Source: Deroplatys truncata (Eukaryota > Arthropoda > Insecta > Mantodea > Mantidae). From it: DNA of 64,000 nucleotides. The translations under genes were made by a program, and so were the position numbers. The stretch lies in assembly GCA_030765065.1 (NCBI GenBank), contig CM060976.1:60806539-60870538 (forward strand), written 5' to 3'. Shown piece by piece: positions 1 through 30,189 of this stretch. The stretch's first letter is position 1; every line of letters begins with the position of its first letter. The notes below the pieces were generated by a model. It was not told where the DNA came from. It ran no database searches and worked only from the letters and a program-made list of their open reading frames with translations.

Positions 1-360
1 CCCTCACATTTAACCCCTCACCCCGAGCGGCACATCCCCTACCCCAAGCCAATCACACGGCAGGGATTTAGACCAAGGGAAGGTACGCGACCGACGTATA
101 GGATCAATACACACTCCCCCACCTATCCACAGGGAACCAACCAGAACACAAAGGGGAGGGAGGACACGCGTATGGGGGAGGGAGGGGGGCGGGGACACCG
201 GCACGTGACCACAGGGGGGGGAGGACCTGCCGGCACATACACTGTCGGCATTAGGTAAGCGCACAAAGGGAAGGGGGCGGAGCTAGCGCCACGCGACCGG
301 GCGGCAAATAGTAGCGCACAAAGGGAGGGGGCGGGGCTAGCGGCATAGATCAAAGAACCT
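1..360. other. GC-rich segment with GC boxes and a short direct repeat
   Basis: This is the only strongly GC-rich stretch near the left edge of an otherwise AT-rich window. It contains several G-rich GC-box-like cores (around 183-195, 272-280 and 326-336). A unit of about 30 bp beginning GCGCACAAAGGG occurs twice, at about 258 and 314. Open frames on the minus strand are proline-rich and look like by-products of base composition. It lies directly upstream of the gene fragment at 367. It may be a promoter or a CpG-island-like repeat; neither can be shown from sequence alone. Confidence 0.4.
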
Positions 361-366
361 TATCAG

Positions 367-703
367 ATGGCGGCAAATCCTTTGCGCCAGAAACGCCATT
401 TATTTGCTACTCATAACAAAGATCCTAATTACAAGGTCATTGTCGAAACAATGTTGGAAAATTTCAAGAAGTTGGGTTGTGAATTTTCTGCATTCACATA
501 TCGACTACTTTCCAGAAAATCTGGGACATTATAGTGAAGAGCAGGGTGAACGTTTTCACCAAGATATTAAGGAAATGGAGAGGAGGTACCAGGGGAGTTG
601 GAATGAAACTATGATGGCCGACTACTGTTGTATGTTGTGGAGAGACAGTCATCTTCAAGGATCTGCAAGGAAGTTAAAGAAGAGAAAGTTTGAAAAAAAT
701 TAA
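367..703 (+). pseudogene. C-terminal fragment of a repetitive arthropod protein family (SEEQGERFHQD motif), frameshifted
   Basis: An ATG at 367 opens a frame that runs to about 480 (ends FKKLGC). The similarity then continues in another frame from about 480 to the stop at 701-703, with HSHIDYFPENLG, SEEQGERFHQDIKEMERRYQG-like and MMADYCCMLWRD segments and a basic tail. I recognise this as the C-terminal part of an uncharacterised, multi-copy protein family of insects and spiders, often linked to mobile elements. The two frames meet where a few codons usual in the family appear to be missing, so a small frameshifting deletion is likely. An AATAAA-like signal follows at about 746. Function is unknown. 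The first-frame part could be a real exon start downstream of the GC-rich segment, but a dead copy is more likely. Confidence 0.6.
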
Positions 704-1140: not shown

Positions 1141-1431
1141 CGTCCTCCGTGAAGTAGTGGTTACCATGTTAGCCTCTAGTTCCCGAGGTTCAAACCCGAC
1201 GCAGGACGATGCATTTTTTTTCGTGCGTAAAAAATCCTTAGCATGGCTTCCTTCGAAAGAAAGTAAAGCTGGTGGGCCCCTGTCGTAGATTTACGGCACG
1301 TAAAAACCTCAAGCTTGTAAGGAGGCTTCTGAGCAATATTTTCAGTCTTTCACGCCCAATACAGAATGGGGGCTAAGGACCACAACAGTGAAATAGTGTC
1401 CATAAATAAAACTCAGTTTAATTTTTCACAT
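1141..1431 (+). mobile_element. SINE-A copy (tRNA-derived)
   Basis: The head TCCTCCGTGAAGTAGTGG carries a pol III A-box-like segment, and GAGGTTCAAACCC is a B box. The body is shared with five other copies in the window: TTTTTTTCGTGCGTAAAAA, CTTAGCATGGCTTCCTTCG, GTAGATTTACGGCACGTAAA and TTTCACGCCCAATA. It ends in AATAAAAC followed by a T-rich tail. The head resembles tRNA-Asp/Gly/Glu-like genes. This copy is diverged and follows an (ATT)n microsatellite. Confidence 0.85.
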
Positions 1432-2301
1432 AATGCTAGAGTCAAATGATGCTGGTCGCCTACATTCTTCCCCCAGCCAGGGTGGTAAGAATTATGAATG
1501 GTAAGAATTATTTATACATTATTTGCAGTGTATTTTATTACAAATGTCTTCTTCCTTCTCTTCAATAGTCGGGGACATTATGGAAAGCAATTCCAAATTG
1601 GAGGGAATACCTTGTTTGCTGTACATGCTCTGTGATTAACTCTTCATTTTATGACCATCCACGTGCAGTGTCATACTGCTACGGGGGTGCATTCTTACGC
1701 TCTGCTGCAACTGCAACGAGGCACTACATTCTTACGGTCGCGTTGTTATATTCGTTATCACTCTGAAATAACATCACTTATTACTTACTACTCATGCGGA
1801 ACCATTAATCTTCTGGAAGCTATCCCACCCTAAGGTTGGTTCGGTTTTGTGAGTAGAAATACAAAGCTTAATTAGTTTTCTCACATTTAATGTGAATCCA
1901 TATAAATTGTACAATAGTTCTCGATCGAGAAATTTCTAATAAATGAATGACCTTATAAAACATAACTCTTTATTATTCATTAATGAATTTCATGGCCTGA
2001 ATATAGTAATTTAATGAAGATAGTTTTCTTCTTAAAGTCTTTAACTTTTCACTTTGCTTGATCAGCCAAGCGTAACATTCATATTTACGTATATTCAATT
2101 TACTAAATTGTTCTTTGTCATTTATAACTTTACACTTGAACTTTGAATTTAATTCCTTTACACCATTTAGTTGCAATTGTTTTGCATGTCCATATGACCA
2201 CAGATTCTTTGTACACAGAGTTTTACAAGTAATTAACCCTACTAAACTACATTAATTGGACATATAAGTGGAACATTTTTATCAGATTTATTTTCTGCTA
2301 T
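1432..2301. other. No recognised feature
   Basis: AT-rich sequence. Short open frames on both strands show no motif I recognise. A GGTAAGAATTAT-type sequence is repeated at about 1486 and 1500. Confidence 0.5.
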
Positions 2302-3573: not shown

Positions 3574-4472
3574 TGCGATGGTAAATTTATAATGTTATTT
3601 GTGTATGTGTTTACTCAACATGGTGAAGCCATCTTGTGACGTGATTCATTTGTTAGGCTTGTTAGCTCCATCTGGTGTTAGCAATTTGCGGCAGTATTAG
3701 TTTTTTTGTTTAAAAAAATGCTAGTTATTTTATTTAATTTTGGTTCTTTGTCCTCCGGCTAGCTTTTGGGTCGAGCACTTCTCTTTATACAGGTTGTGTA
3801 AACGGAAAGGAATCTTTTATCCAAAGATAACACTGATGAAAGAATTTCTTTTATACTTTTATTGTCGAACACTTTCACTATCACATTTACACATTGATCT
3901 AGACACTCGCCAAACTGAAACTGTTATAATAACTTCTTACTGATCACTTTTAATCCACGTACTTCAACCTTTTGTATAATTAACTTTACAACACTTTAGA
4001 TTTTTCATAATTCTGCTACGCATAACTTGTGAATCTATAGCTGACGTGTAATATTTCTGCTGGACTGAAGGCGACGTGTATCATAGAAAATATTTTCGAC
4101 GAACTGACGGGAATGCGACGTGTAGTGTACAAAGAATTTTGATGAACTGACGGACTGAAGGACTTTACCTCTAACCTAGCTTCTATTTATACTTCTACTC
4201 CCGATATGCCTAAAGATTATAACTGAACTGTAATTGGCTAATAAAACGCGCCAACATTACGTAACTTCCTCGTTTCCAATAATGATAAACAGCTCACCCC
4301 CTCGCTGCATTATTGCACGCTATTATTGTCAGTTTCAGTAAGGCGGTATAAACTTCTTTTCAACAATAATTACAGTCAATAAACATCTCAAATCAATGTC
4401 ACATAAAAATGCATATTCATATTACAATCATTATTTACATTTAAGTAATTTGTGATACAAATTACTGCATCA
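3574..4472 (-). repeat. 3' LTR, 899 bp
   Basis: An uninterrupted copy matching 7037-7178 plus 9183-9940 and the solo LTR at 47153-48172. It holds promoter-like sequence (CTATTTATACTTC, ATTGGCTAATAAAACGCGCC) and two diverged copies of a motif of about 44 bp built on CGACGTGTA...GAACTGACGG (about 4066-4160). A small open frame in it (3740-3943) recurs in the other LTR copies and is probably not coding. Confidence 0.9.
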
Positions 4473-5184
4473 TATGCCCCACTAGAAACATAATTATAAA
4501 TATTTACAACTTGTTTGGAAATTTTATAATTGGGTTTTTAGTCTCCTAAATCTTGGAACACACGCTATCACTTTCACTTAACACTTCACACGTATTTAAC
4601 ACACGACATATGTTTTGTCTTTATCTTGACACTATTTACTGGCTCTGGTTTAATGTGTTTAGACATTAATCTGACATTTACAATTTTTTATAGCAAATAC
4701 TGTACCCTGAATTATTTAGTTACTGTTACAAATTGGTTTACTTTCTTATATTGTTGACAAAAATTTGTGCATTTAAGAATTTTTGTAATTACTATACATA
4801 TTTACCAAAAATATTCACCCTTTACATAAATATATTTACATCTCTTAAATCTAGACACTGTTTCACATTTTCTGTTTGCTACATAAGTATTTTTTTAATT
4901 ATTTTTACCCAATTTTTGTTGTTTTGTATTTTATGTTCACAATACTCTTGGAATTATATCTAAGTACTTTTACTTTAATATCATATTAAGTTTCAATCTT
5001 TACATTCTTAATTTCAAATACTGTTACAGTTACCAAAATTTTTTTTTAAACATTTCCCTTTTTTTATAATTAATTTCTCTTTACCTATGACATATATATA
5101 TATAGTTAACCCTCTTACGTTCCAATACATTTCTCTGCAAGTCATCTTTAACTATCCAGCATTTACCTTACATCTAATTGCTAT

Positions 5185-6603
5185 TCACCCTCCTGGATCA
5201 AATTGTCTGTGGCTAATCATTACTCGTAGCCGTATCCTAACCTTCAAAAATTTGTTCATGAATAACCTCTTGTATTCATATGAAATTTCATCCCATGATA
5301 ACATTTGAAAACAATCTACAGTTTCTTGAACAACATATCTTTTAACAACTGTCATTTTCAATTCTTCTACTATCTCTTTACTTTGAAAGTACTCTGACAA
5401 ATCTGTAATAATCTGTACTGGACTGGAGTTTTCATTAAATTTTGGAAGTGGAAAATCACTTAAGATATGATTGTAATTTTGCAAATTCCCTACTCCCATA
5501 TTTAAATTCTCTAGTGTTACTTGTGCACTCTGAGTTTCAGCATTAGCTATAGATGAAGCTGCCGCATCACTCACATTATTTGTCATACCTGAGGAACTAC
5601 CTCTATCATTATTTTGTACATCTGATACATTCACATCACATATATTTGCCCTTGAATTCAATTCTAACCTATTTACAGTACCTTGCAGATTTTCTATTGT
5701 CTGTTCCAATTTTTTATTATTCTCATTTTGAACAGCTTGGTGTTTGTTAATTTCAGAAGTTAGCTTTTGATTCAAATCTTTAGACAAATCTTTAACTTCT
5801 TCAGGCAATTTATTTCTCTGTGTTTCTGACTCCTTCTGAATTTCAGATATTTCCCCTCTGAAATTAACTTGCACCTGAATTAAATCTGCATTTGTAGCCT
5901 CCATCATCTCTCTTAACTCACTTGAAATGCTACTCAGTCGGCTACCTAATTCTGTACATTTTACATCAACATGTTCTATTTTATTATTAACCTCACTTTT
6001 TTGGTTAGATATTTCCCTGCTCATGTCTAACAATTTCTTTGAAACTTCACCTATTTCATTTGCTATCATTTCCTGATTTTCATTTCTCATTCTCATCATA
6101 CTACTATCTAGCTCCATGAATTTCTTTTCAATTTCTTCCCTGTTTTGTTCTAAGCTCTTACCAATATCTTCCCTTAATTCTCTCTTATTCTGATCTAGTT
6201 TTTGTTCTAAACTCCTATCAATATCTTCTCTTAATTCCCTATTATTCTTTTGCATATCTTCCCTTAATTTCTCATTACTCTGAGTTAACTTTTCTAATTT
6301 CTCATTATTCTTTTGCATATCTTCCCTTAATTTCTCATTAGTCTTTTTCATATCTTCTCTCAATTCCCTACTCATATTTCTCAGCATTTCCATCATCATA
6401 CTAGCATCAAGATTAACATTTCCTGCTATTATATTCTGACTTTCTGCACTAACATTTCCACCCTCAAATCCTACATTGTTTGAGCTATTTTCTGTAACCT
6501 GTATTGAATTACAGCTAACTGTTACACTATCCCCCTCCATAATTATTTCTTCTGTATTATTAGTGGACATTGTTTTCTTTATCCTACCGCTCCTAAGGTA
6601 CAT
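5185..6603 (-). CDS. Gag-like protein of the LTR retrotransposon, long coiled coil
   Basis: A 472-residue open frame starting MYLRSGRIKK, the only long intact ORF in the window. Residues about 60-320 are rich in E/K/N/Q with heptad-like spacing and repeats of REDMQKNNEKL type, so a long coiled coil is predicted. Residues about 370-450 contain LPKFNENSSPVQII and EYFQSKEI, typical of the capsid-like segment of Ty3/gypsy Gag. It ends HRQFDPGG without a CCHC zinc knuckle, protease or downstream pol frame. It would package the element's RNA into a particle in the cytoplasm. It may be truncated at its C terminus compared with autonomous relatives. Its intact frame suggests a fairly recent insertion or selection on Gag. 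Confidence 0.8.
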   Translation of the reverse strand: MYLRSGRIKKTMSTNNTEEIIMEGDSVTVSCNSIQVTENSSNNVGFEGGNVSAESQNIIAGNVNLDASMMMEMLRNMSRELREDMKKTNEKLREDMQKNNEKLEKLTQSNEKLREDMQKNNRELREDIDRSLEQKLDQNKRELREDIGKSLEQNREEIEKKFMELDSSMMRMRNENQEMIANEIGEVSKKLLDMSREISNQKSEVNNKIEHVDVKCTELGSRLSSISSELREMMEATNADLIQVQVNFRGEISEIQKESETQRNKLPEEVKDLSKDLNQKLTSEINKHQAVQNENNKKLEQTIENLQGTVNRLELNSRANICDVNVSDVQNNDRGSSSGMTNNVSDAAASSIANAETQSAQVTLENLNMGVGNLQNYNHILSDFPLPKFNENSSPVQIITDLSEYFQSKEIVEELKMTVVKRYVVQETVDCFQMLSWDEISYEYKRLFMNKFLKVRIRLRVMISHRQFDPGG

Positions 6604-6947
6604 TTAAATGTTACAATTTTGTTTTCTAAAAAAAAATTACGATACTCTGACCTTTGTGATGCTGTCTGTTGCTGTTACTTTGATGTCCAGCTTCCTGCCC
6701 CTCTCTCCTAGGTTTGTATGTCGCTTCTGCGTCGTATCATGATGAATCTACGTCGTTTTGGTGTTCCGTATTTGAATTCCCCTGTTGCCTTTTAATCTCG
6801 GAATTACGATGTCCAATCATCCGCGTAGTCTGTCGTTCCTATAGTTTTTTCTGGAATCTGCGTCTTGTAGTTCAGTTCACTGCTCCATTCACTCCACGTC
6901 CTGATTCCTTCTCTCCTTCCTGGTTATTTCACTCCTTTCCTGGTCAC

Positions 6948-7036
6948 TCTGCCCCACGTTCTGGGCGCCAATTTGCGAGTGTAATAATGTTAATGTTATT
7001 TAACATTATTGTAGCCCCACGTTGTGGTAGCCAATT
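6948..7036 (-). other. Duplicated LTR-end plus primer-binding-site segment
   Basis: On the minus strand, the LTR end (TG at 7037) is followed by a PBS-like AATTGGCTACCACAACGTGG. Then comes a 38-bp second LTR-end-like piece beginning at TG 6974, followed by a second PBS-like AATTGGCGCCCAGAACGTGG. The second LTR-end piece contains GTTAATGTTATTTAACATTA, which resembles the end of the solo LTR at 47153 rather than this element's own LTR end. Confidence 0.7.
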
Positions 7037-7178
7037 TGCGGTGGTATTTCTTATAATGTTTGTGTATTTGTTTTTACTTCACGCGTTGAAGCTATCTTGT
7101 GACGTGATTCATTTATTAGGCTTGTTAGCTCCATCTGGTGTTAGCAATTTGCGGCAGTATTAGTTTTTTGTTTAAAAA

Positions 7179-8092
7179 ATCTGATGTGTTACACTCATAT
7201 GACTTTCTCTACTCTTGTACAATTTAATTTTACAAACGCCTATTCTCCATATGCTTCAAGTTAACCGAGATATCGAGATGTCAATCTTATTGGTAATTTT
7301 CTTGTAGATGCAAGGGGAATATGGTAGCTATTAAGCGATAGTCGAATATTTTAACGCTGGTTGCTATGTGGCGCATTCCATTCTCTTTGCATGTCCAGGA
7401 CATAAAAAAAATCTGATGTGTTACACTCACATGACTTTCTCTACTCTAGTACAAACTATTTTTACAAACGCTTATTCTCCATATGCTTCATCTTAATCGA
7501 GATATCGAGATGTTAATCTTATAGCTAATTTTCTTGTAGATGCAAGGCTTTAAGCGATAGTCAAATATTTTAAAAGCTGGTTGCTATGTGGAATATTCCA
7601 TTCTCTTTGCATTACCAGGACAAAAAAATCTGATGTGTTACACTCACATGATTTTCTCTACTCTTGTACAAACTATTTTTACAAACGCTTATTCTCCATA
7701 TACTTCATGTTAATTGAGATATCGAGATGCCAATCTTATTCCTAATTTTCTTGTAGATGCAAGGGGAATATGGTAGGTTATAAGCGATATTCAAATCTTT
7801 TAAGCGTTGGTTGCTATGTGGCGCATTCCAATTTCTTTGCATGTCTAGGACATAAAAAAAAATCTGATGTGTTACACTCACATGACTTTCTATACTCTTG
7901 TACAATCTATTTTTACAAACGCCTATTCTCCATATGCTTCATATTAATCGAGATATCGAGATGTCAATCTTATTTGTAATTTTCTTGTAGATGCAAGGGG
8001 AATATGGTAGCTTTTAAGCGATAGTCAAAAATTTTATCGCTTGTTGCTATGTGGCGCATTCCATTCTCTTTGCATGTCCAGGACATAAAAAA
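7179..8092 (+). repeat. Four tandem copies of the RE-B 5' unit
   Basis: Units start with CTGATGTGTTACACTCA at about 7181, 7413, 7630 and 7863 and end with TGCATGTCCAGGACAT followed by an A-run. Each contains GAGATATCGAGATG and GGTTGCTATGTGG. Copies differ by point changes and small indels. Confidence 0.85.
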
Positions 8093-8555
8093 ATGAATAA
8101 CGAATTTGAGAAAAAGTATAAGTATTGGAAAATTTAAGGAAATAACAAGCAATATCTCGAAAACGGTTCACTCAACAACAAAAAATGTATATGATATAAG
8201 TTGTGTATTTTAACGCGATCTACATTTTTTGTGTAGTAAAAATTTGTCTAACTCTTATGGTTTACCAGTTATGCAAAAGTCGTTCATAATGAAGAATACT
8301 TTTGGAGACATTCCCAGAAATTTCGAGATATACATTTCATTTCTCATGACATTATCTTAAACATATGATATTTTCATCAAAATCGTTAGAGCCATTTTTG
8401 AGAAAATTAAAATTTTCAAAAAATACTCCATGTAAAGGGTAGTCTGGGGTCGGGGGATTTTCTTGAAAATCTTGGTGTCGCATCTCTGGAAGATACTGAA
8501 CGTAAATACTAAGTTTGGTGTTTATCCGACTGTTAGTTTTTGAGTTATGCTGTTC

Positions 8556-8605
8556 ACAGACACACACACACAGACACACACACACACACACACAGACACA
8601 CACAC
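8556..8605. repeat. (CA)n microsatellite inside RE-B
   Basis: Imperfect ACACAC with CAGACAC interruptions. A matching tract at about 9025-9050 sits at the point where the second body lacks about 190 bp, which suggests a deletion between CA-rich tracts. Confidence 0.85.
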
Positions 8606-9958
8606 GGACATGTTTCCAAAAATGCTTTTTTTGGATTCAGGAGGTCTCAAAACATGTATTTCCGGTGAAATCTCGGTATCGAATTTTTGGGTGGAATGCA
8701 ATACTTCCCCTACTTACTATACGTAGTAGAGAAAGTAAAAATGAATAACGCATTTGAGAAAAAGTATAAGTATTGGAAAATTTAAGGAAATAAAAAGCAA
8801 TATCTCGAAAACGGTTCACTCAACAAAAGAAATGTATATGACATAAGTTGTGTATTTTAACGCGATCTACATTTTTTGTGTAGTAAAATTTTGTCTATCT
8901 CTTATGGTTTACCAGTTATGCAAAAGTCATTCACAATGAAGAATACTTTTGGAGACATTCCCAGAAAATTCGAGATATACATTTCATTTCTCATGACATT
9001 ATCTTAAACATATGATATTTTCATCACACACACACAGACACACACACACGGACATGTTTCCAAAAATGCTTTTTATGGATTCAGGAGGTTCCAAAACATG
9101 TATTTCCGGTGAAATCTCGGTATCGAATTTTTGGGTGGAACGCAATACTTCCCCTACTTACTATACGTAGTAGAGAAAGTAAAAATGCTAGTTATTTTAT
9201 TTAATTTTGGTTCTTTGTCCTCCGGCTAGCTTTTGGGTCGAGCACTTATCTTTATACAGGTTGTGTAAACGGAAAGGAATATTTTATCCAAAGATAACAC
9301 TGATGAAAGAATTTCTTTTATACTTTTATTGTCGAACACTTTCACTATCACATTTACACATTGATCTAGACACTCGCCAAACTGAAACTGTTATAATAAC
9401 TTCTTACTGATCACTTTTAATCCACGTACTTCAACCTTTTGTATAATTAACTTTACAACACTTTAGATTTTTCATAATTCTGCTACGCGTAACTTGTGAA
9501 TCTATAGCCGACGTGTAATATTTCTGCTGGACTGAAGGCGACGTATATCATAGAAAATATTTTCGACGAACTGACGGGAATGCGACGTGTAGTGTACAAA
9601 GAATTTTGATGAACTGACGGACTGAAGGACTTTACCTCTAACCTAGCTTCTATTTATACTTCTACTCCCCGATATGCCTAAAGATTATAACTGAACTGCA
9701 ATTGACTAATAAAACGCGCCAACATTACGTAACTTCCTCGTTTCCAATAATGATAAACAGCTCACCCCCTCGCTGCATTATTGCACGCTATTATTGTCAG
9801 TTTTAGTAAGGCGGTATAAACTTCTTTTCAACAATAATTACAATCAATAAACATCTCAAATCAATGCCACATAAAAATGCATATTCATATTACAATCATT
9901 ATTTACATTTAAATAATTTGTGATACAAATTACTGCATCAGGCTAGAATGTGAGCACG

Positions 9959-10960
9959 CGAGGCATGCATGAAGAGGTGCACCAATAAGAAGGCTCTTGA
10001 AACTCACAAGTTGTGGTGTAGTAAGCCATTTGCTTAAGATGCCGCAACAGGATGAGAAGATTGAATTTAAATCATTTTCCAAAAGCGCTCCTGTATCTTT
10101 TGGCATGTCAGGCCTTTTTGAGGAATTTTCGGGCGCAAAACATTTTGTAGAAACAGCTTGTAGTACGCGTCTGCTACAGACGTCCCCTGAGGCACTCTAT
10201 TGTAACTATGACTCCATCCATGTATACACAAAGTTTATCATCAGTTTCACCTCTGATTGTTGGCGGCGGATTTTTTTTTTTTGGGCGTAGAGATTCAGAA
10301 CTTTTCCATTTTGACGACTAGACTTCAGTTCTGCCTCAAAATCTCGTATCCAGGTTTCATCAAGTACAACAATCCTTTTCAGACACTGTTCTCCTTCTGT
10401 TCGATAACGTTGAAGCAATTCGTCTGCGATTCTTTTGCGACCTGCTTTCTGCTCTTCACTCAGATCATGCGAAACCCATCTGGCAGCAACTTTTCTCATC
10501 TTTAACTTTTCAGTAATGATTCTGTAAACTGAAGACACCCTGGCCTCATATGGAATTCCTCACATGTTTTTCGTCGATCCTCTCTCAAAATGTCAATAAT
10601 ACTGAGCGGTATAGTCTGTTGCAGTTGATGGTCTTCCAATTCTGGGGTTGGCCTCAATGTTTACCCGACCTACACGGAAACGAGCAGACCACCGTGATAC
10701 TGTACTACTGTAAACTAACATTTCAGTTGGGTTCTTCCCACGTAGGGATTCGATATTGATGGAACGCTGGTCACTATTGTAATCCGACCTGACTTGGCTC
10801 AGCTTCCATTTTACTCACGACACAGACACGCGAACCAGCAAACATACACTACCGCCAAGCCTAAAGTTCGCCAACACCACAACTGATATAAATTTCAACT
10901 TGATCACGCCACCGTAACGGTGCTCATGCGCCGTGTGCAGGACGTTTGAAATGATCCTCG
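9959..10960 (-). mobile_element. Mariner element relic
   Basis: The right end, read on the minus strand, is CGAGGATCATTTCAAACG, a typical mariner inverted-repeat start, next to a TA at 10961-10962. A weaker CGAGGCATGCATGAA-like match at about 9959 may be the left end. The interior is a broken transposase. It abuts the ATPase relic of the virus fossil and probably inserted at its edge. Confidence 0.65.
10000..10809 (-). pseudogene. Mariner (SETMAR-like) transposase, frameshifted
   Basis: The reading starts at an ATG at 10809 (MEAEPSQVG...) and meets stops soon after. The N-terminal DNA-binding part is recognisable near 10600-10700 (RWSARFRVGRVNIE, NPRIGRPSTATDYTAQYY) and runs through several frames. 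An open stretch at 10538-10206 carries KVAARWVSHDLSEEQKAGR and VVLDETWIRDFE, whose Asp is the first residue of the mariner DDD triad. C-terminal remnants (YYKLFLQNVLRP) lie near 10150 in another frame. The enzyme would cut and paste mariner DNA in the nucleus; with several frameshifts and stops it is dead. Confidence 0.85.
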
Positions 10961-11105
10961 TATCTTCAGAATTGTGAACAGTGCACAAACTGTTGTTCTT
11001 AAATTGATAGTTTTCTTTGACACCTCTATGATAAAACGATCAAACAGTCTGCTAACTGGAATGGTCCTCTAAGAGCTGAACCTGTCAATACTCATGGTTA
11101 ACTAC

Positions 11106-11813
11106 GAAGGATCATTTTAGTTTTATCAATCTTGATATATACTTCAAAACCATTCTTATATCGTCCGTCGTTCATGTGAAATTCAGGAACTATCACAACA
11201 AAGGTTCTTCCTTCTGATACACTCTCCTAAATACTTTTACATAGATCTTTAAATTCATCGTGTGTTCATGTCAATGTTTACATAATCTTCATAAATATGC
11301 TTCAAGTTTAAATTATCTTGCCTGAAGAGCAGAATCATGTTCCTATTATCGCGAATTAAATATTTTGCACTTTAGCATAGAATTGCACTAGATATGCAGA
11401 GTCCACATTTCGATGTCTACCCATGCTATAAAAGAATGCGATCCATCCCTGCTTTTCAGTAATGACCGCATCAAATATAAAGATTGAATTTTCTTTGACT
11501 TCAGAAGGATGCAAAGCATCTTCTCTATTGTCGAAAGCGGTCACTTCTATACAATCGATATTTCCAAGTACTTAAATCAGGTATTGATACTTTGACTGAT
11601 AGAGAGACTTTGAATAAATATACAGCTATGCAAAACGTGGAGCAGCATATTGAGTAATACATTCGTTTCCCCTGTACTGGAACTTCTCAAAATAAGAATT
11701 CTGACTTTAGAAGGAAGCAGCTGGTCATGACGAATATGTCTAAAGTAACTTTCAAAGTCTAATATCTGAATAGAGAGGTACAGAGCACTGTTGCTTAACA
11801 AGATCCATGTCAA
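11106..11813 (-). pseudogene. FtsK/HerA-type genome-packaging ATPase relic
   Basis: Three open pieces follow one another. 11813-11577 has RHDQLLPSKVRILI and then a P-loop region SSSTGETN. 11544-11356 has PSEVKENSIFIFDAV and YSMGRHRNVDSAYL. From about 11340 to 11106 there is MILLFRQDN, LKHIYEDYV and, in another frame, DGRYKNGFEVYIKID. Order and spacing match packaging ATPases of Polinton-like elements, which pump DNA into the capsid. The P-loop lysine position reads Glu (codon at 11667-11669) and the second acidic residue of the Walker B motif reads Ala. With at least two frameshifts it cannot work. It is divergent from the capsid genes. On the same strand a short frame beginning MSIDRFSS follows at about 11085, possibly the next gene before the mariner insertion. 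Confidence 0.75.
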
Positions 11814-12164
11814 CAGCTAACTTATAAAATTATAAGCGCTGTTTATATTCATATTGAATAGTGAAGTAAACTAAATTGTTGCATTAACTGGTCACGTTTG
11901 CCCGTGTTTTGGGCAGGTTAGGTTAGGTGTCAAAGAAAAGATATAAAAGGAACAACACATGCATGTGCTCGATTAGCATATCACGAGAGCTAAGCGACGG
12001 GGGTGGTGGCATTATAAGCGTGGCTCTGGAATTATTAATTAAATAAATAATTCACTCTCCTTTGAAACTCACTTGCTGAGATACAGATATTGTGGCCCCA
12101 GCACGAAATTGGAAAAGCACCTTTAAAGAGGAGACCCAGGAATAAACCAATTAGACGAAGCTAG
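11814..12164. promoter_or_regulatory. Possible divergent promoter region between ATPase and capsid genes
   Basis: About 350 bp separate the minus-strand ATPase start from the first plus-strand virion gene. A TATA-like GATATAAAAGG lies at about 11940-11950 on the plus strand, and GCAGGTTAGGTTAGG at about 11914. A lysine/arginine-rich reading (KRRPRNKPIRR) at about 12126-12160 ends in a stop at 12162-12164 and may be the decayed N terminus of the next gene. Confidence 0.35.
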
Positions 12165-12688
12165 CAAAAGTACAATATTTCATTCGCTGAGCATAATAGC
12201 ACTTCAAGACTCTTGGCAGATAAGATTCTTGCGAAGAATACTTGGAAGCGTGTCCAGTCATCAGACTCAACTTTGGGTGAAAGGATAGCTGCGAAGATAG
12301 TAACTGTAATCATGAAGGCCAAGGTTGCAGTGGGAGCCGGAAAGAAGAGAGGTGGATTTTACCATTCGTTCCTATCATTACTGCTTTAGGTGCCGTAGCT
12401 GGAGGCGCTACTCAAATGACCTCTACAATCAATAAAAAGGCTGCTGATAGACAGTTGGCAGAAATCACGAGGCATAACAAAGTGATGGGGGCTAGAGGAA
12501 AGGGACTCCGAAAGAGAAGGAGTAAGAAGGGCAATAAAGGAGGTGTTTTATCAATGAAGCCGCTAATGTCATCTTTAGCCGCTGCAGGAGCCAGGAGCTT
12601 AAAAAATAATGGATCTAAAGGTAAGGCTTTAAAGAAGTCAAAAACTCTGGAAGAATATTGTACATATACCGGAGGAAGCCCTGAATAA
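12165..12688 (+). pseudogene. Px-like basic minor capsid/core protein relic
   Basis: An open frame from 12165 reads FAEHNSTSRLLADKIL, NTWKRVQSSDSTLGERIAAK and then MKAKVAVGAGKKRGGF. At about 12357-12362 the frame shifts by one base and the reading continues LPFVPIITALGAVAGGATQ and ITRHNKVMGARGKGLRK, ending at 12688. The layout (basic segment, Gly/Ala-rich hydrophobic segment, Lys/Arg/Gly-rich tail) and the position just before the protease match the small basic virion protein of Polinton-like elements, probably a core or membrane-active minor capsid protein. The tail RKRRSKKGNKGG suits DNA binding. The ORF end overlaps the start of the protease reading. The role is by position and motif only. 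Confidence 0.65.
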
Positions 12689-13009
12689 TACTGATATCGA
12701 AGTGTATGCTAGACGTATAAAAATTTCTTATTTTAGAGGAGTATATATGATTGACAAACTACCTTTAAAGCCTCAATTCAGAGAGGCTTATTGTTAATAT
12801 CGATACCTCTGATAATGAAGGAAAGCACTGGGTTACTGTAAGGAAAGAAGGTAATGTGACATACTACTTTAATAATTTTCGTAACTTGAAACCGCCTCCT
12901 GAGATTGAGAAATATCTATAAGATGTTAAATCTTCTATAACATACAGAGATACCAGAATTTTGATTCATCATCCGTGGACATTTGTGCGTGCAATTTCTA
13001 TTCTTCTAA
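12669..13009 (+). pseudogene. Adenain-like capsid maturation protease relic, catalytic residues lost
   Basis: Frame one (12669-12797) reads NNTDIEVYARRIKI and YFRGVYMIDKLP. Frame two starts at about 12787 with IVNIDTSDNEGKHWVTV, FNNFRNLKPP and an in-frame stop near 12919. Frame three ends RGHLCVQFLFF at the stop 13007-13009. The family cleaves capsid precursors late in assembly and uses His, Asp/Glu and Cys. The His is retained (KHW). The acidic residue expected in the YF-D/E-x-F segment reads Asn. The cysteine expected before GHLC reads Arg (CGT at 12974-12976). With two frameshifts it is inactive. The plus-strand order between the core and penton-like genes fits. Confidence 0.75.
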
Positions 13010-13028
13010 GAGCTGCTACATTGTCAAG

Positions 13029-13728
13029 ATGAGTTATACAGTTACAGTGAGTGGACCAGACACTATTATTTCCACATATTTAAACTCTCCTCTACGGTTA
13101 GATTCTCCGGGTTATTATGAGGCTTCTCTCTTGAATTTTGAAACATTCTACTCAATACCAAACATTGATGAAAGTAATAATCGATTTCAGCATGTTCATA
13201 ATTTTAAACCTGAAATCATTGTCATTCCTCATAGAACCTACGAGATTGTCAATATCAATCAATTTCTAAAGAATACACTGGGATTGAATGATGAAGCCTT
13301 CTTCACAAGACCTAATAAGAATACAATGAAGGCTGAAATTATATGTCTTATACAATAGATTTTTCTAACTATAGATCTATAGGGATGCTTCTGGTATACA
13401 CCGTCATTAAAATAATTACTGCTGGAGTAGCGGCTGAATCTGATGAACTTGTGAATATATTTAAAGTATCATACGCGTGGCTGCAGTATTGCAACAGGTT
13501 CTTTCATTGATAGTAAAAGTAGACATTCGCTCTCTGAGTTTTTCCCTTCTCTTCCACCAGGCTATAACATCTCAAGAGTCTTCGAGTCCGATATATATAC
13601 GTCATAGATACAAACTATATAGATCAATCACTATTCGAGTGGTAGATCAGTACGGCAAGGCAATTAACTACAGGAACGAGGTTATAACTACAAGACTCCG
13701 CATAAGACGTAATGGCAATAGCTTTTAG
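13029..13728 (+). pseudogene. Penton-like minor capsid protein relic
   Basis: The likely start is the ATG at 13029 (MSYTVTVSGPD). An upstream ATG at 12969-12975 reads through the decayed protease tail and is less likely. The first part (to 13358) contains NSPLRLDSPGYYEASLLNFE, FYSIPNIDESNNRF and IIVIPHRTYEIVNINQFL. A stop, a middle part in changed frames (YTIDFSNYRSIGMLL near 13350-13400; SEFFPSLPPGY near 13540) and a last part to 13728 with ITIRVVDQYGKAINYRNE and TTRLRIRR follow. I recognise this architecture from a conserved protein next to the double-jelly-roll capsid gene in insect Polinton-like loci, taken to be the penton or vertex protein. At least two frameshifts. Confidence 0.7.
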
Positions 13729-13804
13729 AAGTCGTCGCAAACACTATAATAGACGATGTATAGCGCGTTTGAGGCGTACTATCTCCCCGAATGCCGAGGA
13801 GTAA
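13712..13804 (+). CDS. Short arginine-rich ORF between penton-like and capsid genes
   Basis: Thirty residues from ATG 13712 to TAA 13802-13804, starting MAIAFRSRRKHYNRR. It overlaps the end of the penton-like reading in another frame. With about ten Arg/Lys it could be a small core-like peptide of the fossil, or the decayed N terminus of the capsid gene; chance is also possible. Confidence 0.3.
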   Translation: MAIAFRSRRKHYNRRCIARLRRTISPNAEE

Positions 13805-14318
13805 ACACATGCTAACCGCAACTTCCTCGAGAGGATAGGCTACAAAGTGCTATAACGGACACCTTAAACGTAACAGAGGTTCCGGCCTTTAATGACAAGA
13901 TCACCAAGGAGGAGGAGCATGTTTTTCTACCATAGAACACATCTGTTCTGGATGTAAATGATGAAATTAGAATACCCTGCCAAGCTGAATATTTGTATAC
14001 TCTGCCTTACAAGAGTTATCTTTACATCGAGGGTATTCTCACCAAGGCAAATGGATCTCCTACTACAGCGAAGCTCACCAATAATGCCATAGCCTTCATG
14101 TTTGATGAAATTCGTCTAGATATGAATGCTACAATTATAGACAGAACAAGGAATCCTGGAATTGCTACAACTATACGAGATTATGCATCTATCAATCCTA
14201 TGTAGTCAAATCGTCTGCCGAATACTGGATGGACTTATCCTGGTGGAGAAATTGATACAGTACATGCTGCATATGGAACTTTCAATGCTGTGGTCCCGCT
14301 GCTGCTAGGATTTGCTGA

Positions 14319-14556
14319 AATTGAATTTTATTTAACTGCTTTAACTCTTTAACTGCTGTGTTTCTTAGCGTCCCATGCTATATTGGGTGTGAAATACCGG
14401 TAATTTTGCTCAGAGGCCTATTTATCAGGCTTGAGGGTCTTTTACGTGCCGTAGATCTACGTACGGGACCACCGGCTTTACTTCCCTTCCAAAGGAAGCC
14501 ATGTAAGGATTTTTACGCCCGAAAAAATCCATCGCCCTCCGCCGGTTTTGAACTTC
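14319..14556 (-). mobile_element. SINE-A copy nested in the capsid gene
   Basis: The inverse of the SINE-A body: CTCAGAGGCCTATTTATCAG, TTTTACGTGCCGTAGATC and CGGTTTTGAAC (B box) on the plus strand. It is flanked by the 14-bp direct repeat CTAGGATTTGCTGA at 14305-14318 and 14557-14570, a clear target-site duplication. The tRNA head is 5'-truncated after the B box. The capsid reading resumes on the far side. Confidence 0.92.
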
Positions 14557-14999
14557 CTAGGATTTGCTGATGATCATAAGGAGCTCATACTCAACAGCAA
14601 GTTTGAATTTGTTCTCATAAGATTCAAAGATACTAAAACTTATGTTCAGACTTTAGAAGGAGAGGAAGCTAATGTAAAGTTACAGTAGGAAAGATGGTTT
14701 TGTGCCGGTGACCTTGTTTCCTCGCGCACTGAAGAGAGTCTATGTCTAACGCCAGGTAGCTCTCTGTCTGCCTGCCTGCTGGAAGACGTGGGACTTTGCT
14801 GATACGACATAAACATACAACACCACACCATTACATTGACTGGTTTATTCTCACTATTATCAGATTGCTCTATAATTCTTTTATATTTACACATTATACA
14901 CAAACCTTGTCACGTAAATGCATTGTCGTAAACTAGCGGGGGCTTTATTAGTGTGATAAACGCTCTACACCAGACATATCACCACCGTCGTTTTCTTCT

Positions 15000-15520
15000 G
15001 CAAGACTTTCTCTTTCATCGTCATCAGTCTTCTTCTCGTTCGCTGTCACTATATTTCCTAACCTGGATTACAGAACCTTCTAAGACATTTTCAAATAGGC
15101 CTTGTTGTTCTTCAATGTATTTGTCTTCCTACTTAATGTGTTGAAAGGCATTTTCCCACTTTTCTACGCTAATGTCCTCAACATGTTGTTAGCTAAGCTT
15201 AATCAATAACATCATGTAGTTTAAAAGGGTGTTCTACCAAGCTACCCATTGCTTTATATCAGCCCAGATGAGTTCTACTCGAGTAAGCCTCGAAGACTAG
15301 GGCGGTAATCGGAGAACATTGTGTGCATGGACTACAAACTATCAACGTAAATTTTCGGAATAGGTTTTGACCCTTACTTAGGTTGTAAAGCTCCAAACTT
15401 GGCATCCTTTCATAGAATGGGGCACGTTCTGCATCGTATTTTGGTATGAGGCAATAGGGCCTTTTCCAACTGCACACTATGGTACGATGCGTTATGCATC
15501 ACCAAGACAGATCTGAGAGG
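15000..15520 (-). pseudogene. C-terminal remnant of a Tc1/IS630-type DDE transposase
   Basis: Read on the minus strand from about 15520: VMHNASYHSVQLEKALLP, a part with CAKFGALQPK-like text, NVLRLPP, VELIWADIKQWVAW, and a C-terminal VEKWENAFQHIK followed by an acidic tail. The Glu of VELIWA is the third catalytic residue of the DDE triad. The second catalytic Asp, expected before NASYHS, reads His. Several stops interrupt the frames, and the N-terminal helix-turn-helix region and first Asp are absent, so it is inactive. Confidence 0.75.
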
Positions 15521-15693
15521 CAAGGTAGGAATTAGTTTTTTCCATTAGCGATTTCTTTGTATTTATCCCCATCATTTTGTGTTATATTAACCTTTGTTAT
15601 TTTTACATAACACGTCGCAGAGGGCAAGAACCTCTAACAAACACACCAAAATACACAATAACTATATACAATCCAAGTTTAATTACAGAAACA

Positions 15694-15914
15694 CAGGGGT
15701 GTCATTTAGGGGGGCAGAGGTCAATTGGCCCCCTCCCCTAGGTTACGAGCAACATTATTGCTCTACCAAATGAAACATTACAATTGTACTATTAATAGCA
15801 ATATTTCACATTTAAGAAATAAAACATATATATAGTTACAATCCACATGAACATTTGTAAAACTGCTCCAAGCAATCTTGGCCCCCCAATGCAGAAATTG
15901 AAATTACGCCCCTA
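15694..15914. mobile_element. hAT-type MITE nested in the Tc1-like element
   Basis: A 221-bp element beginning CAGGGGTGTCATTT and ending AAATTACGCCCCTA, which are imperfect inverted repeats. It is flanked by an 8-bp target duplication CAGAAACA (15686-15693 and 15915-15922), the size expected for hAT. It has no coding capacity. Runs of C and G near both ends (GGGGGGC, GGCCCCCC) also pair. Confidence 0.92.
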
Positions 15915-16755
15915 CAGAAACATATAGTGACTAATTTATAAACACAACGTTCAAGGTAGCATCAACAGACGGCCTGACAAAAGAGAATGTTACTCGAACT
16001 ACTGCTGCCGCTGGACTGAAGCGATGGCACTTACTGCGCATGCCCAAGAATTGGGGGCTCGCTCACTGTACAGATAACAAGTGCGCATCGAGCCTTCACC
16101 GGCACAGAACCATCGTCCCTACTGTAGCTAGAATCGAATGGAGGATGCCTGTAACTCATCTTTCTGATGCTGAAAGGGTTCACATTGTAAAAAGTATAAA
16201 GGCTGATAGATCTCTACACATCGCCTTTCGTTCCATGAATCTTCTACCCCAGTCGCTATATCCCAGACAAGTTCCTTCAAATGGAATGTAGCAACAACAT
16301 TCTAAGCTTGAGAAACCTCGCTTCGTCATAGTGGGAGCACAGACTGCAAGACTGGGTTATTATAACAAGAACAATTCCGATTTTGGTTACTGCAACATTA
16401 CTGACTTGAGGTTATTCCTCAATAGTGAATGCTACCCCATCATGATTTGAACTTAGACTTTAAAAATTCCAACGTCTCTTCACTATATGAAATATACTGT
16501 AAATTTCAAAGTTCCTGTTATGATAGAAATAATTACCCACTCTTGAAGAGAAGGGAATTTCTTCATCGTACACCATTATTTGTGATAAACTGTTCCCATC
16601 AATCTCAGGAGGCTATAAAATGAGCTGTGAAAATCAGACTTGAGGTTCAAGCATCTGAAAATACCCCAGCCCAGACATCACTGTATTGCCTGATTCTACA
16701 TGAGAAAGCGTTTACCTATAAACCTCTTTCGCAAGTGATGCAAACTATTATATAA

Positions 16756-17309
16756 TCATATGTGTAGGAAGTCTGGACTATTACCATTATGTTTGGAAAT
16801 GAATGTATGGATTTTGTTAAGGATTGTAATAGGGTCATTTTAATAATAAATTTAATTCATATACTATAACACTCTTTTATTGTGTTTCTAATACATTTCA
16901 AGAAGTTTCCTTCTCCCCCTCCTCCTCTCTGAAAAACTAGATGCTCTTAACCTGTAGAATTAATTTAGATTGCTAAACTGTCTTTCAATGTGGGGCAATA
17001 GCTGTTTTTGACTCCCTACAGCATCAACGTTTAAAGACATTACATGATCATTTAAACTAGTGTTTATGAAATGAATTGGATTGTCAAGAAACACAATTAT
17101 ATGCATAACTTACAGTACGACAATATTCCTCACACGCAATTTTTTTTTCTTGTAGGTAGGTAATCTTCAATAATTGGAACGTTTTTTGGATATTATGTGC
17201 CTGTGTGGTTTTGTAACATAAACAAATGAATTATCACTTTCACATTTTATGTAGAGGAAGGGCGTGTCATAGTATAATTTAATGTTCACGCGATGGGAGG
17301 GGGATTATG
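16756..17309. other. No recognised gene; 3' flank of the capsid gene
   Basis: AT-rich. AATAAA-like signals near 16845 could serve as a polyadenylation signal for the capsid transcript. No other motif was recognised. Confidence 0.4.
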
Positions 17310-17484
17310 CTGACGTCATCAAACACGAGCAATCAATTCTCCATTCCCTGATGGCGAATGTTGGGTATCTTCGATGAATACGAAAACCATGGGACCTTCG
17401 TTGAGGATCCTCCTCTTACAGCGACGCTTCTGCTTTTTCTGCTCGTTCTCGTTCTTCCTCTCTCTTCGCTCTCTCCTCCTAGCC
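17310..17484 (-). other. Possible exon, basic/acidic-rich, unidentified
   Basis: On the minus strand the sequence TTTTACAG ends at 17485 and is followed by a purine-rich open stretch with RRRERRERKNE-type or GGERAKRGR-type readings, depending on frame. It resembles an exon behind a splice acceptor. No family was recognised. It may belong with the pieces at 17617-17852 and 18085-18255. Confidence 0.3.
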
Positions 17485-17616
17485 CTGTAAAATATATTCA
17501 AATTAATGTTAGAATTAGGCTAAAATAATTTCATGCACCTGAAAGAGAAATACATGTATTAGAAAACCCCCCTCACATCTTAAACATAAATATGATTAAA
17601 GAGTGTCATATTCACT

Positions 17617-17852
17617 TCAAGGTTTTGCGAGTTTCTGGTTGTATCTGCGGCGAGCAATCTGGAGTCAACTGATTTAGCCACTCGTCAATCCTCATAGCTC
17701 TCTTATCAGGAATAATAACGTCGGAAAATTAAGCGGCATCCTCAACCATTGGCTGAGTATGCGGCTCAACGATTGTATATTCTACTACATCAATATCACG
17801 TCTCTCAGGATCTAGCTCCTCTATTGGCACGGATACAGTAGGCATTCGCAAT
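17617..17852 (-). pseudogene. Possible exon with one stop, unidentified
   Basis: On the minus strand an acceptor-like TATTACAG precedes 17852 and a donor-like GTGAAT follows 17617. Between them one phase reads VPIEELDPERRDIDVVEY, VEPHTQPMVEDAA, a TAA at 17729-17731, then IIPDKRAMRIDEWLNQL. The acidic, proline-containing text looks coding rather than random. I do not recognise it. It could be host, or part of the neighbouring virus fossil. Confidence 0.35.
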
Positions 17853-18084
17853 CTGTAATAAATTACTTTTAGATTAGATAGAAGAAAACAACATTAGAAG
17901 CAATACATTAATATATAAATGCTGGCGAGGAGGGAGAATGCTACTTATATACACATCCGCCTGTTTACATTCATAAACATGTTAATGGCGTCACGCAGCG
18001 GCTGTGCAAGGGGTGGAATGCAGGTGAGACTTGTTACTAACATCACTGCTATGCTAGTCGCGGGCATCCTTTCCCCAACCGGCT

Positions 18085-24070: not shown

Positions 24071-27000
24071 ACGAGATTGTCATATACAACTAGCCTTTGC
24101 CCCATGCATTCAGCACATGTTTTAACGGGTGGGGACAAGTCCGTAATTAGCATGGGGTTGTCATATACAACTAGCCTTTGTTCAATGCAATGAACAATGT
24201 TTAAATGAGGTGGGGACAAATTCACAGCTAGTATGGGGTTGTCATAGACAACTAGCTTTGTTAAATGCAGTGAACAATGTTTAAATGAGGTGGGGACAAG
24301 TTCACAGCTAGTATGGGGTTGTCATAGACAACTAGCCTTTGTTCAATGCAGTGAACAACGTTTAAATGGGGTGGGGACAAGTTCACAACTAGTATGGGGT
24401 TGTCATATACAACTAGCCTTTGTTCCATGCAGTAAACAACGTTTAAATGGGGTGGGGACAAGTTCACAGCTAGTATGGGGTTGTCATATACAACTGGCCT
24501 TTGTTCAATGCAGTGAACAACGTTTAAATGGGGTGGGGACAAGTTCACAACTAGTATGGGGTTGTCATAGACAACTAGCCTTTGTTCCATGCAGTAAACA
24601 ACGTTTAAATGGGGTGGGGACAAGTTCACAACTAGTATGGGGTTGTCATAGACAACTAGCCTTTGTTCCATGCAGTAAATACATGATTGAACGGGGTGAT
24701 GATGAGTCCACAGCTCGCATGAGGTAGTCATAGGGGACTAGACTTTTTTCCATGCAATGAGTACATGTTTGATGGGGTGGGGACAAGTCCTCAGTTGTCA
24801 TGGGGTTGTCACAGACAACTTGCCTTTGTTGTATTCAGTAAGCACATGGCTGAATGGGATGGTGAGAAGTCTACAGCTAGCATGGCGTAGTCATAGGAAA
24901 GTAGACTTTGTTCCATGCGGTGAGCACATTTATGAATGGGGTTGGTACAAGCAGAGTACACTTTGTTCCATACAGTAAGAAAATTATTGAATGGAGTAGG
25001 TATAAGTCAGCAGAGACTAGGAGACTAGACTTTGTTCCATGCAGTGAGCACATGATTGAACAAGGTGGGAACAATTCAACAACTACTGTGGAGTTGTCAT
25101 AGGAAATATCCCCCGCCAAAAAAACTTTCGTAGTAGCATTTGTTCCATGCAGTGAGTATATTTTGGGTGCAGCTAACATGGAGTTGCCATAGGAGACTAG
25201 ACTTTGTTCCATGCAGTGAGCACATGATTGAATGAGGTGGGGACAATTTGATAGCTAGCATATTGTTGCCATAGGAGACTAGACTTTGTTCCATGCAGTG
25301 AGCACATGATTGAATGAGGTGGGGACAAGTTGACAGCTAGCATGTGGTGGCCATAGGAGACTAGACTTTGTTCCATGCAGTGAGCACATGATTGAATGAG
25401 GTGGGGACAAGATGACAGCTAGCATGTGGTTGCCATAGGAGACTAGACTTTGTTCCATGCAGTGAGCACATGATTGAATGAGGTGGGGACAAGTTGACAG
25501 CTAGCATGTGGTTGCCATAGGAGACTAGACTTTGTTCCACGCAGTGAGCACATGTTTGAACTGGGTGGGGACAAGATGAAAGCTAGTGTGTGGTTGCCAT
25601 AGGAGACTGGACTTTGTTCCATGCAGTGAGCACATGATTGAATGAGGTGGGGACAAGATGACAGCTAGCATGTGGTTGCCATAGGAGACTAGACTTTGTT
25701 CGATGCAGTGAGCACATGCTTGAATGAGGTGGAGACAAGTTGACAGCTAGCATGTGGTTGCCATAGGAGACTAGACTTTGTTCCATGGAGTGAGCACATG
25801 ATTGAATGAGGTGGGGACAAGATGACAGCTAGCATGTGGTTGCCATAGGAGACTAGACTTTGTTCCATGCAGTGAGCACATGATTGAATGAGGTGGGGAC
25901 AAGTTGACAGCTAGCATGTGGTTGCCATAGGAGACTAGACTTTGTTCCACGCAGTGAGCACATGTTTGAACTGGGTGGGGACAAGATGAAAGCTAGTGTG
26001 TGGTTGCCATAGGAGACTGGACTTTGTTCCATGCAGTGAGCACATGATTTAACAGTATGAGGACAAGTCGAAAACTAGTGTGTAGTTGCCATAGGAGACT
26101 AGACTTTGTTCGATGCAGTGAGCACATGATTGAATGAGGTGGGCACAAGTTGACAGCTGGCATGTGGTTGCCATAGGAGACTAGACTTTATTCCATGCAG
26201 TGAGCACATGATTGAACAGGATGAGGACAAGTCTATAGCTAGCATGGAGTTCCCATAGAAGACTAGACTTTGTTCCATGCCATGAGCACATGATTGAACA
26301 GGATGGGGACAAGTCTATAGGTAGTATGGAAATGTCATAGGAGACTAGAGTTTGTTCCATGCCATGAGCACATGATTGAACAGGATGGGGACAAGTCTAT
26401 AGCTGGGATGGAGTTGCCATAGAAGACTAGACTTTGTTCCATGCCATGAGCACGTGTTTGAACTGGGTGAGGACAAGTCTACAGCAGTTGCCATAGGAGA
26501 CTAGACTTTGTTCCGTGCCATGAGCACATGTTTGAACTGGGTGGGGACAAGATGGAAGCTAGTGTGTGGTTGCCATAGGTGACTGGACTTTGTTCCATAC
26601 AGTGAGCACATGATTTAACAGTATGAGGACAAGTCGAAAACTAGTGTGTAGTTGCCATAGGAGACTAGACTTTGTTCGATGCAGTGAGCACATGATTGAA
26701 TGAGGTGGGGACAAGTTGACAGCTGGCATGTGGTTGCCATAGGAGACTAAACTTTGTTCCATGTAGTGAGCACATGATTGAATGAGGTGGGGACAAGTTG
26801 ACAGCTGGCATGTGGTTGCCATAGGAGACTAGACTTTGTTCCATGCAGTGAGCACATGATTGAATGAGGTGGGGACAAGTTGACAGCTGGCATGTGGTTG
26901 CCATAGGAGACTAGACTTTGTTCCATGCAGTGAGCACATGATTGAATGAGGTGGGGACAAGTTGACAGCTGGCATGTGGTTGCCATAGGAGACTAGACTT

Positions 27001-28200
27001 TGTTCCACGCAGTGAGCACATGATTGAATGAGGTGGGCACAAGTTGACAGCTAGCATGTGGTTGCCATAGGAGACTAGATTCTATTCCATGCAGTGAGCA
27101 CATGATTGAATGAGGTGGGGACAAGTTGACAGCTAGCATGTGGATGCCATAAGGGACTAGAACTCTGTTCCATGCCATGAGCACATAATCGAACAGGATG
27201 GGGACAAGTCTATAGTTAGCATGGGGTTGCCATACAAGACTAGACTTTGTTCCATGCAGTGAGCACATGATTGAACAGGATGAGGACAAGTCTATAGCTA
27301 GTATGGAAAGTCATAGGAGACTAGAGTTTGTTCCATGCCATGAGCACATGATTGAACAGGATGAGGACAAGTCTATAGCTAGCATGGAAAGTCATAGGAG
27401 ACTAGAGTTTGTTCCATGCCATGAGCACATGATTGAACAGGATGGGGACAAGTCTATAGCTAGTATGGAAATGTCATAGGAGACTAGAGTTTGTTCCATG
27501 CCATGAGCACATGATTGAACAGGATGGGGACAAGTCTATAGTTAGCATGGAGTTGCCATACAAGACTAGACTTTGTTCAATGCAGTGAGCACATGATTGA
27601 ACAGGATGAGGACAAGTCTATAGCTAGTATGGAAAGTCATAGGAGACTAGAGTTTGTTCCATGCCATGAGCACATGATTGAACAGGATGAGGACAAGTCT
27701 ATAGCTAGCATGGAAAGTCATAGGAGACTAGAGTTTGTTCCATGCCATGAGCACATGATTGAACAGGATGGGGACAAGTCTATAGCTAGTATGGAAATGT
27801 CATAGGAGACTAGAGTTTGTTCCATGCCATGAGCACATGATTGAACAGGATGGGGACAAGTCTATAGCTGGGATGGAGTTGCCATAGAAGACTAGACTTT
27901 GTTCCATGCCATGAGCACATGTTTGAACTGGGTGAGGGCAAGTCTATAGCAGTTGCCATAGAAGACGAGACTTTGTTCCGTGCCATGAGCACATGTTTGA
28001 ACTGGGTAGGGACAAGATGAAAGCTAGTGTGGGTTGCCATAGGAGACTGGACTTTGTTTCATGCAGTGAGCACATGATTGAATGGGGTGGGGATAAGTCT
28101 ATAGCTAGGATGGATTTGCCATAGCAGACTAGACTTTGTTTTATACAGTGAGCATATGATTGAACTGGGTGGAGTCAATTAAACAGCTAGCGTGTGGTCG
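24071..28200. repeat. 81/82-bp satellite array, about 50 copies, several subfamilies
   Basis: The unit core is TTGTTCCATGCAGTGAGCAC, then GGTGGGGACAAG and a GTTGTCATAGACAACTAG- or GTTGCCATAGGAGACTAG-type segment. 24071-24690 is an 81-bp subfamily, so frames repeat every 27 residues on both strands. From about 25160 units are mostly 82 bp. A subfamily with GAACAGGATGGGGACAAG and CCATGCCATGAGC occupies 26200-26500 and 27140-27940. Older, variant units lie at 24700-25160 and after 28000. The open frames come from the repeat and are not genes. Confidence 0.95.
27267..27805 (+). repeat. Four-unit higher-order repeat within the satellite
   Basis: The stretches 27267-27479 and 27593-27805 encode identical 70-residue readings, so they are near-identical at a 326-bp offset (four units). 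This points to recent local duplication. A five-unit offset (about 410 bp) links similar variant units near 25548 and 25958. Confidence 0.85.
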
Positions 28201-29890: not shown

Positions 29891-30189
29891 TCCTCCATGG
29901 TGTAGTGGTACCATGAAGTTCCTCCTCCATGGAGTACCTCTAGTTCCCGACATTACAGGTTCAAACCAAGTTTCGGGCAATGGATTTTTTTCAGACATAA
30001 AAATCCTTAGCATGCCTTCCTTCAGAAGGGAAGTAATGCAGATGGTTTCTCTCATAGATTTCCAGCACACAAAAGAAGCTCAAGCCTGATAAAGAGGCCT
30101 CTGAGCAAAATTTCCAGTATTTCACGCCCAATATAGAATGAGATGCAAAGAACCATAGCAGTCCATAAATAAAACTGAATTTAATTTTA
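29891..30189 (+). mobile_element. SINE-A copy
   Basis: Head TCCTCCATGGTGTAGTGG, B box AGGTTCAAACC, body AAATCCTTAGCATGCCTTCC, AGAGGCCTCTGAGCAAAATT and TTTCACGCCCAATATAGAA, tail AATAAAACTGAATTTAATTT. It carries a small local duplication of CCTCCATGG near the A box. Confidence 0.9.

Follow-up and report, generated by a model that had tools for sequence, protein, structure and literature searches.

Genes for virion proteins that lie embedded in an insect chromosome can be read in two ways, either as what is left of a larger mobile element or as a lineage that has carried virion genes only. This question is raised by a stretch of 64,000 nucleotides from the mantis Deroplatys truncata (assembly GCA_030765065.1, contig CM060976.1, positions 60,806,539 to 60,870,538 of the forward strand), which is referred to as the window in the following. 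The initial annotation described a fossil cluster of five virion-type genes of the Polinton/adintovirus kind in this window, saw neither polymerase nor integrase, and asked whether the cluster is a truncated Polinton or a distinct lineage without replication genes. The fossil is almost certainly what erosion has left of a single Polinton (Maverick) insertion, which is dead and internally deleted. It is an ordinary fossil in itself; the family to which it leads is less so.

Much of the evidence is provided by further members of this family in the assembly, which comprises 4.29 Gb in 818 contigs. When 12 proteins read from these copies were compared with the window by tblastn, all five virion-type relics were recovered (best E 3e-6 to 1e-82) in the order and on the strands described before, namely the ATPase on the minus strand followed by the core/phospholipase A2 (PLA2) protein, the protease, the penton and the double-jelly-roll capsid protein on the plus strand (10944-16755). 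The same queries gave no match at E<=0.01 in 20 shuffles of the window in two-base blocks or in the reversed window. A fossil virion cluster of the Polinton type is hence well supported, and the limits 10963 to 16755 assigned to it were nearly exact for the virion relics; the element itself, however, extends further, with two relics of the DNA polymerase PolB on the left and a non-coding arm on the right (Table 1).

Eight loci of the same genome (L001-L008) align to the window in long pieces at 79-82% identity and have the same virion gene order, and seven of the eight fetched loci are 96.2-99.5% identical to L001. A DNA search with the fossil penton gave a best match of 86% outside the window (40 of 1860 candidates scored). 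Judged by these sequence distances, the fossil stands well apart from the near-identical copies and is probably much older. The 8 kb to the left of a further copy, L009, encode PolB on the plus strand and an rve integrase, open reading frames (ORFs) of 273 and 369 amino acids and the ATPase on the minus strand; PolB matches PF03175 (2e-13) and the integrase matches rve (5.5e-10). The C-terminus of this integrase resembles, as we assume, a chromodomain, and Pfam reported rve alone for the protein. Searches of NCBIfam with nine proteins yielded matches below the cut-off only, the strongest of which was an IS481-type match to the integrase (6e-17). In all of ten sampled copies, which are 16,683-17,205 bp long, AGTAG...CTACT ends and identical 6-bp target duplications were found, and their terminal inverted repeats (TIRs) span 590-877 alignment columns with 98-100% identity (differences per columns compared: 2/767, 12/876, 2/633, 0/622, 2/760, 15/764, 3/589, 2/624, 4/621 and 2/765). 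The ten were taken mainly from the top rows of the 150 best-scored penton matches described below and are a non-random sample with a bias to young, well-kept copies. The divergent gene arrangement, which had helped to raise the question of a distinct lineage, is real, but it is that of the copies examined and normal in the family.

Within the window, both PolB relics are colinear with L009 and lie on the expected strand and in the expected order. At the DNA level, the left relic is 72% identical to L009 1628-2015 and the right one 78% identical to L009 2041-2200. The polymerase, which had been reported missing, is thus present in part, as the fossil retains codons 327-545 of it only, and a PolB of the putatively protein-primed kind expected of a Polinton is recognised by sequence in both the copy and the fossil. 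Regular expressions for PolB and integrase motifs found none in the window; these motifs were too strict, because the PolB relics emerged by DNA match and tblastn. A 51-bp match between window 1555-1605 and L009 1494-1544 may represent a further scrap of the element. PolB codons 466 and 464 flank the insert that splits the relic on either side, and this insert, at which no target duplication was seen, is probably a long terminal repeat (LTR) element. It contains a minus-strand ORF of 472 amino acids (5185-6603), as well as tandem and dispersed repeats (7174-9187) which resemble stretches beyond the Polinton end in another copy, L010. Between PolB codon 545 and codon 54 of the 369-amino acid ORF, about 5.1 kb are missing, which covers the rest of PolB, the integrase, one ORF and most of another. 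As the family has an integrase and none was found in the window, the fossil is classed as a deleted copy of this family.

Several observations weigh against this assignment. The integrase, the C-terminal PolB frame and the 273-amino acid ORF have no match in the window at E<=0.01 by tblastn, so that on this point the initial annotation was right and the rve integrase expected of a Polinton is found in the family rather than in the fossil. Likewise, no terminal repeat or target duplication of the fossil itself was found in the window, its ends being lost, and a right terminal repeat was not found at the non-coding arm either; terminal repeats, too, are present in the family. The protease of another copy resembles solved structures weakly (African swine fever virus S273R, E 0.036; adenain, E 0.31), and the capsid protein of another copy has no credible solved relative by sequence. 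Finally, a gap bearing a mariner relic separates the PolB relics from the virion relics, and the LTR-like insert splits PolB, for which reason a single original insertion is indicated by colinearity only. The PolB relics and the virion relics might accordingly descend from two separate, neighbouring Polinton insertions, both dead and the latter truncated. The region does hold more than one such fossil, as an inverted Polinton relic left of the window has its terminal repeat at window 213-411; however, the PolB relics fit the strand and order predicted from L009, and their two pieces abut at codons 464-466. We therefore regard two neighbouring insertions as unlikely and one deleted Polinton as the better account.

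A lineage that possessed virion genes only, and never a polymerase or integrase, would agree with the failure of the integrase query to match the window at E<=0.01, but it is extremely improbable and was rejected, given that PolB relics are present in the window and its relatives elsewhere in this genome are complete Polintons bearing terminal repeats; of the two possibilities raised at the outset, the truncated Polinton is the correct one. An equally slight chance attaches to virion genes domesticated by the host, which would fit the still easily readable capsid and penton relics and was rejected because stops, changes of frame or insertions interrupt the relics, as the six-frame translation reveals.

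Table 1. Features of the deleted Polinton and of the elements inserted into it (window coordinates).
Feature	Position	Strand	Evidence
PolB relic, codons 327-466 of the N-terminal PolB frame of L009	3182..3581	+	tblastn 56-68% identity, E 8.6e-28 and 4e-8
Insert within the PolB relic	3714..9940		LTR-like direct repeats at 3714-4472 and at 9181-9940 with 98.6% identity in 760 columns
PolB relic, codons 464-545	9945..10179	+	tblastn 47-70% identity, E 1.3e-13
Relic of a mariner transposase, at the deletion gap	10206..10559	-	phmmer against PDB, Mos1 transposase, 7.3e-6
Relic of the family's 369-amino acid ORF, first 54 codons	10944..11101	-	tblastn 59-80% identity, E 4.5e-12
FtsK/HerA (A32-like) packaging ATPase relic	11122..11826	-	tblastn 45% (11503-11826) and 59% (11122-11508)
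PLA2-like part of the core/CAP gene relic	11980..12278	+	tblastn 57%, E 1.8e-18
Basic core part of the core relic	12413..12681	+	tblastn 65-76% over two short pieces, E 2.8e-6 and 8e-4
Adenain-like protease relic	12657..13003	+	tblastn 67-85% identity, E 4.6e-39
Penton relic, in two main pieces that differ in frame	13029..13725	+	57% and 60% identity to P0001
First part of the major capsid protein relic	13816..14318	+	tblastn 78%, E 1e-82; PF21738 3.5e-10
Short interspersed nuclear element (SINE) inside the capsid gene	14319..14556		14-bp duplication 14305-14318 / 14557-14570
Major capsid protein relic, second part	14557..14682	+	PF21738 1e-5 (below cut-off); DNA 84-86% to eight copies
TIR element inside the capsid gene, about 1.44 kb, TA-flanked	14683..16124		34-bp inverted repeats, 88%
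Third part of the major capsid protein relic, with stops and changes of frame	16125..16755	+	PF21738 in four pieces, best 7.8e-12; tblastn 55-63%
Right non-coding arm of the element	16756..17918		DNA 80-81% to L001-L008 up to 16927-16935; 76% to L010 1-993

The profile searches that had been proposed as a check gave a divided result, in that the capsid pieces match the double-jelly-roll profile PF21738, whereas no credible match in Pfam was obtained with the fossil's own pieces of the ATPase, core and protease genes. Six stop-free pieces of the capsid relic are colinear on PF21738 (profile positions 2-43, 74-119, 118-158, 177-223, 222-281 and 288-314), three of which pass the curated cut-off alone; the capsid protein of another copy matches the same profile at 7.6e-110. 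In eight of eight copies, the sequences that flank the two interruptions of the capsid gene meet (window 14318/14555 and 14682/16125), and the SINE and the TIR element are therefore later insertions, the TIR element presumably one of the Tc1/mariner type. The SINE belongs to a family with five other copies in the window (1185-1419, 29975-30162, 38812-39046, 43208-43435 and 54578-54789), which share 78-86% identity with the copy that interrupts the capsid gene. A capsid piece gave chance-level matches only in the PDB and no match in phage records, and nine pieces of the window found nothing better than E 0.038 in PHROGs.

The penton relic was recovered by tblastn with proteins of the same-genome copies at a best E of 7e-72, and its first piece matches a 243-amino acid database protein, P0001, at E 9.7e-30. 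A protein search with P0001 listed 112 proteins including P0001 itself, and the six with an organism name are all from ants. A structural model of P0001 was predicted by AlphaFold2 from 59 of these 112 proteins (mean predicted local distance difference test score, pLDDT, 93.2); its best match in the PDB is the penton of mavirus (E 5.2e-9, TM-score about 0.5), followed by adenovirus penton bases. The model thus has its fold in common with the pentons of the virophage mavirus and of adenoviruses, with about 10-13% sequence identity in the structural alignments, and a jelly-roll penton as expected of a Polinton is present. No relatives were found in a collection of viral contigs with the capsid piece, P0001 or the penton alignment. 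In the window, the penton lies immediately upstream of the capsid gene; in the available part of a paper on Polintons, the penton gene is placed either directly in front of the capsid gene or at a distance of one gene (PMC4028283).

For the ATPase and the core gene, other copies of the family serve as the bridge to known proteins. The ATPase relic was found at E 1e-40 (C-terminal half) and 1e-19 (N-terminal half), and the C-terminal half of another copy matches Pox_A32 just below the cut-off (2.2e-4; 21.2 bits against 22.8), so that the FtsK/A32-type packaging ATPase of Polintons is recognised in the fossil via this copy. The core gene, as a correction to the initial annotation, starts with a PLA2-like domain, which was recognised in another copy (PF08398, 3.4e-13). 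The protease of another copy found in Pfam Josephin alone, below the cut-off (0.024). The PLA2 domain of the core protein is not new, because insect Mavericks with a PLA2-type CAP protein are already in print, according to the accessible text of that report (PMC5803895).

The full form of the element, as read from the other copies, is 16.7-17.2 kb long, with PolB on the plus strand at the left, followed by the integrase, two accessory ORFs and the packaging ATPase on the minus strand and by core/PLA2, protease, penton and capsid on the plus strand, all enclosed by long inverted repeats. Polintons are replicated by their PolB, which starts at the terminal repeats with a protein primer; their integrase makes a staggered cut of 6 bp for insertion, and the capsid proteins may serve for packaging. 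The full form of the present family presumably works in this way. From the gene content and order, terminal repeats and target duplications of the other copies, together with the colinearity of the fossil, we infer that the relics of PolB and of the virion genes stem from one insertion. The probable course is that the window copy inserted long ago and that some 5.1 kb were then lost from its middle, along with both of its recognisable ends; it took up the LTR-like insert, the mariner, the SINE and the TIR element and gathered stops and frameshifts. It is no longer able to work as an element.

The family as a whole presents a different picture. One exact penton 30-mer occurs 412 times in the genome and one exact integrase 24-mer 294 times (none for either reversed pattern), counts which refer to short exact words rather than whole elements and which miss copies with one change. 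On four contigs (C1-C4), which both lists of sites cover in full, 59 of 92 penton sites have the integrase word 4,813-4,888 bp away on the same strand and on the expected side, and no penton/integrase pair on opposite strands lies within 7 kb. The remaining 33 sites, which tell against the Polinton assignment, lack the integrase word at the expected place, either by a changed letter or by loss of the integrase. Of the matches to P0001 in the genome, the best 150 of 7764 candidates were scored, and all 150 are without internal stops. These are mostly open frames of 283 amino acids, with some of 250 and a few others, and the two lengths suggest at least two subfamilies. It is conceivable, and we put it forward tentatively with slightly less than even confidence, that a capsid-bearing Polinton family has multiplied to several hundred copies, and this recently enough for one of the ten sampled copies to have identical terminal repeats (0/622), and that it is perhaps still moving within cells or as particles. 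The near-identical terminal repeats favour recent insertion; this is countered by a stop in the PolB frame of L009, the only copy read on its left side, and the autonomy of this copy is putative at most. Spread as particles, if true, would account for the open penton frame in all 150 scored best-matching copies. Particles of animal Polintons have not been observed according to the consulted portion of a study on vertebrates (PMC8097293), and hundreds of capsid-bearing Polinton sites, many of them apparently young, offer a place to ask whether animal Polintons move like transposons or like viruses. No report of this family was recognised in the literature covered, which mostly excludes subscription journals.

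Beyond the left edge of the window lie further pieces of Polinton elements like the inverted relic. Another feature of the window itself is a long tandem array (24077-28198) with units of 81-82 and 164 bp. Several open frames on the minus strand (49381-52423) presumably are pieces of the reverse transcriptase of a long interspersed nuclear element.

High copy numbers of Polintons occur in some other eukaryotes, for instance in Trichomonas. The available sections of the respective reports describe Mavericks as abundant in some wasps (PMC6035795) and some termites (PMC12909921). Per genome, the vertebrate study gives, in the part at hand, 8 Mavericks as the median and 287 as the maximum, with no more than 38 intact (PMC8097293); the 412 penton 30-mer sites counted here exceed this maximum, but they are short words and do not imply intactness. 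The same section describes elements that are like the present ones in their mean length (about 16.9 kb), AGT-type ends, TIRs (46-1447 bp), target duplications of 6 bp and mostly decayed state, and unlike them in the layout of their modules. Adintoviruses possess PolB, an rve integrase, a hexon and usually a penton, and are defined by a PolB with an OTU-like domain and by hexons that find each other by BLASTp, in the excerpt consulted (PMC11071296); the likeness to them is one of description only. Polinton-like viruses (PLVs) are, with one exception, without rve integrase in the accessible part of their description (PMC4642659), and the family described here, which has this integrase, differs from them in this respect. 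As far as the available text of the report on Sf Maverick 1 and 2 goes (PMC5803895), these elements share with the present family ATP, INT, a CAP with a parvovirus-like PLA2, PRO and POLB as well as ORFs without known domains. Eight small ORFs of the Sf Mavericks form a tandem series in an order common to both elements, whereas ATPase and integrase in the family described here run opposite to core, protease, penton and capsid. Taken together, the family is a further member of the known Polinton/Maverick kind.

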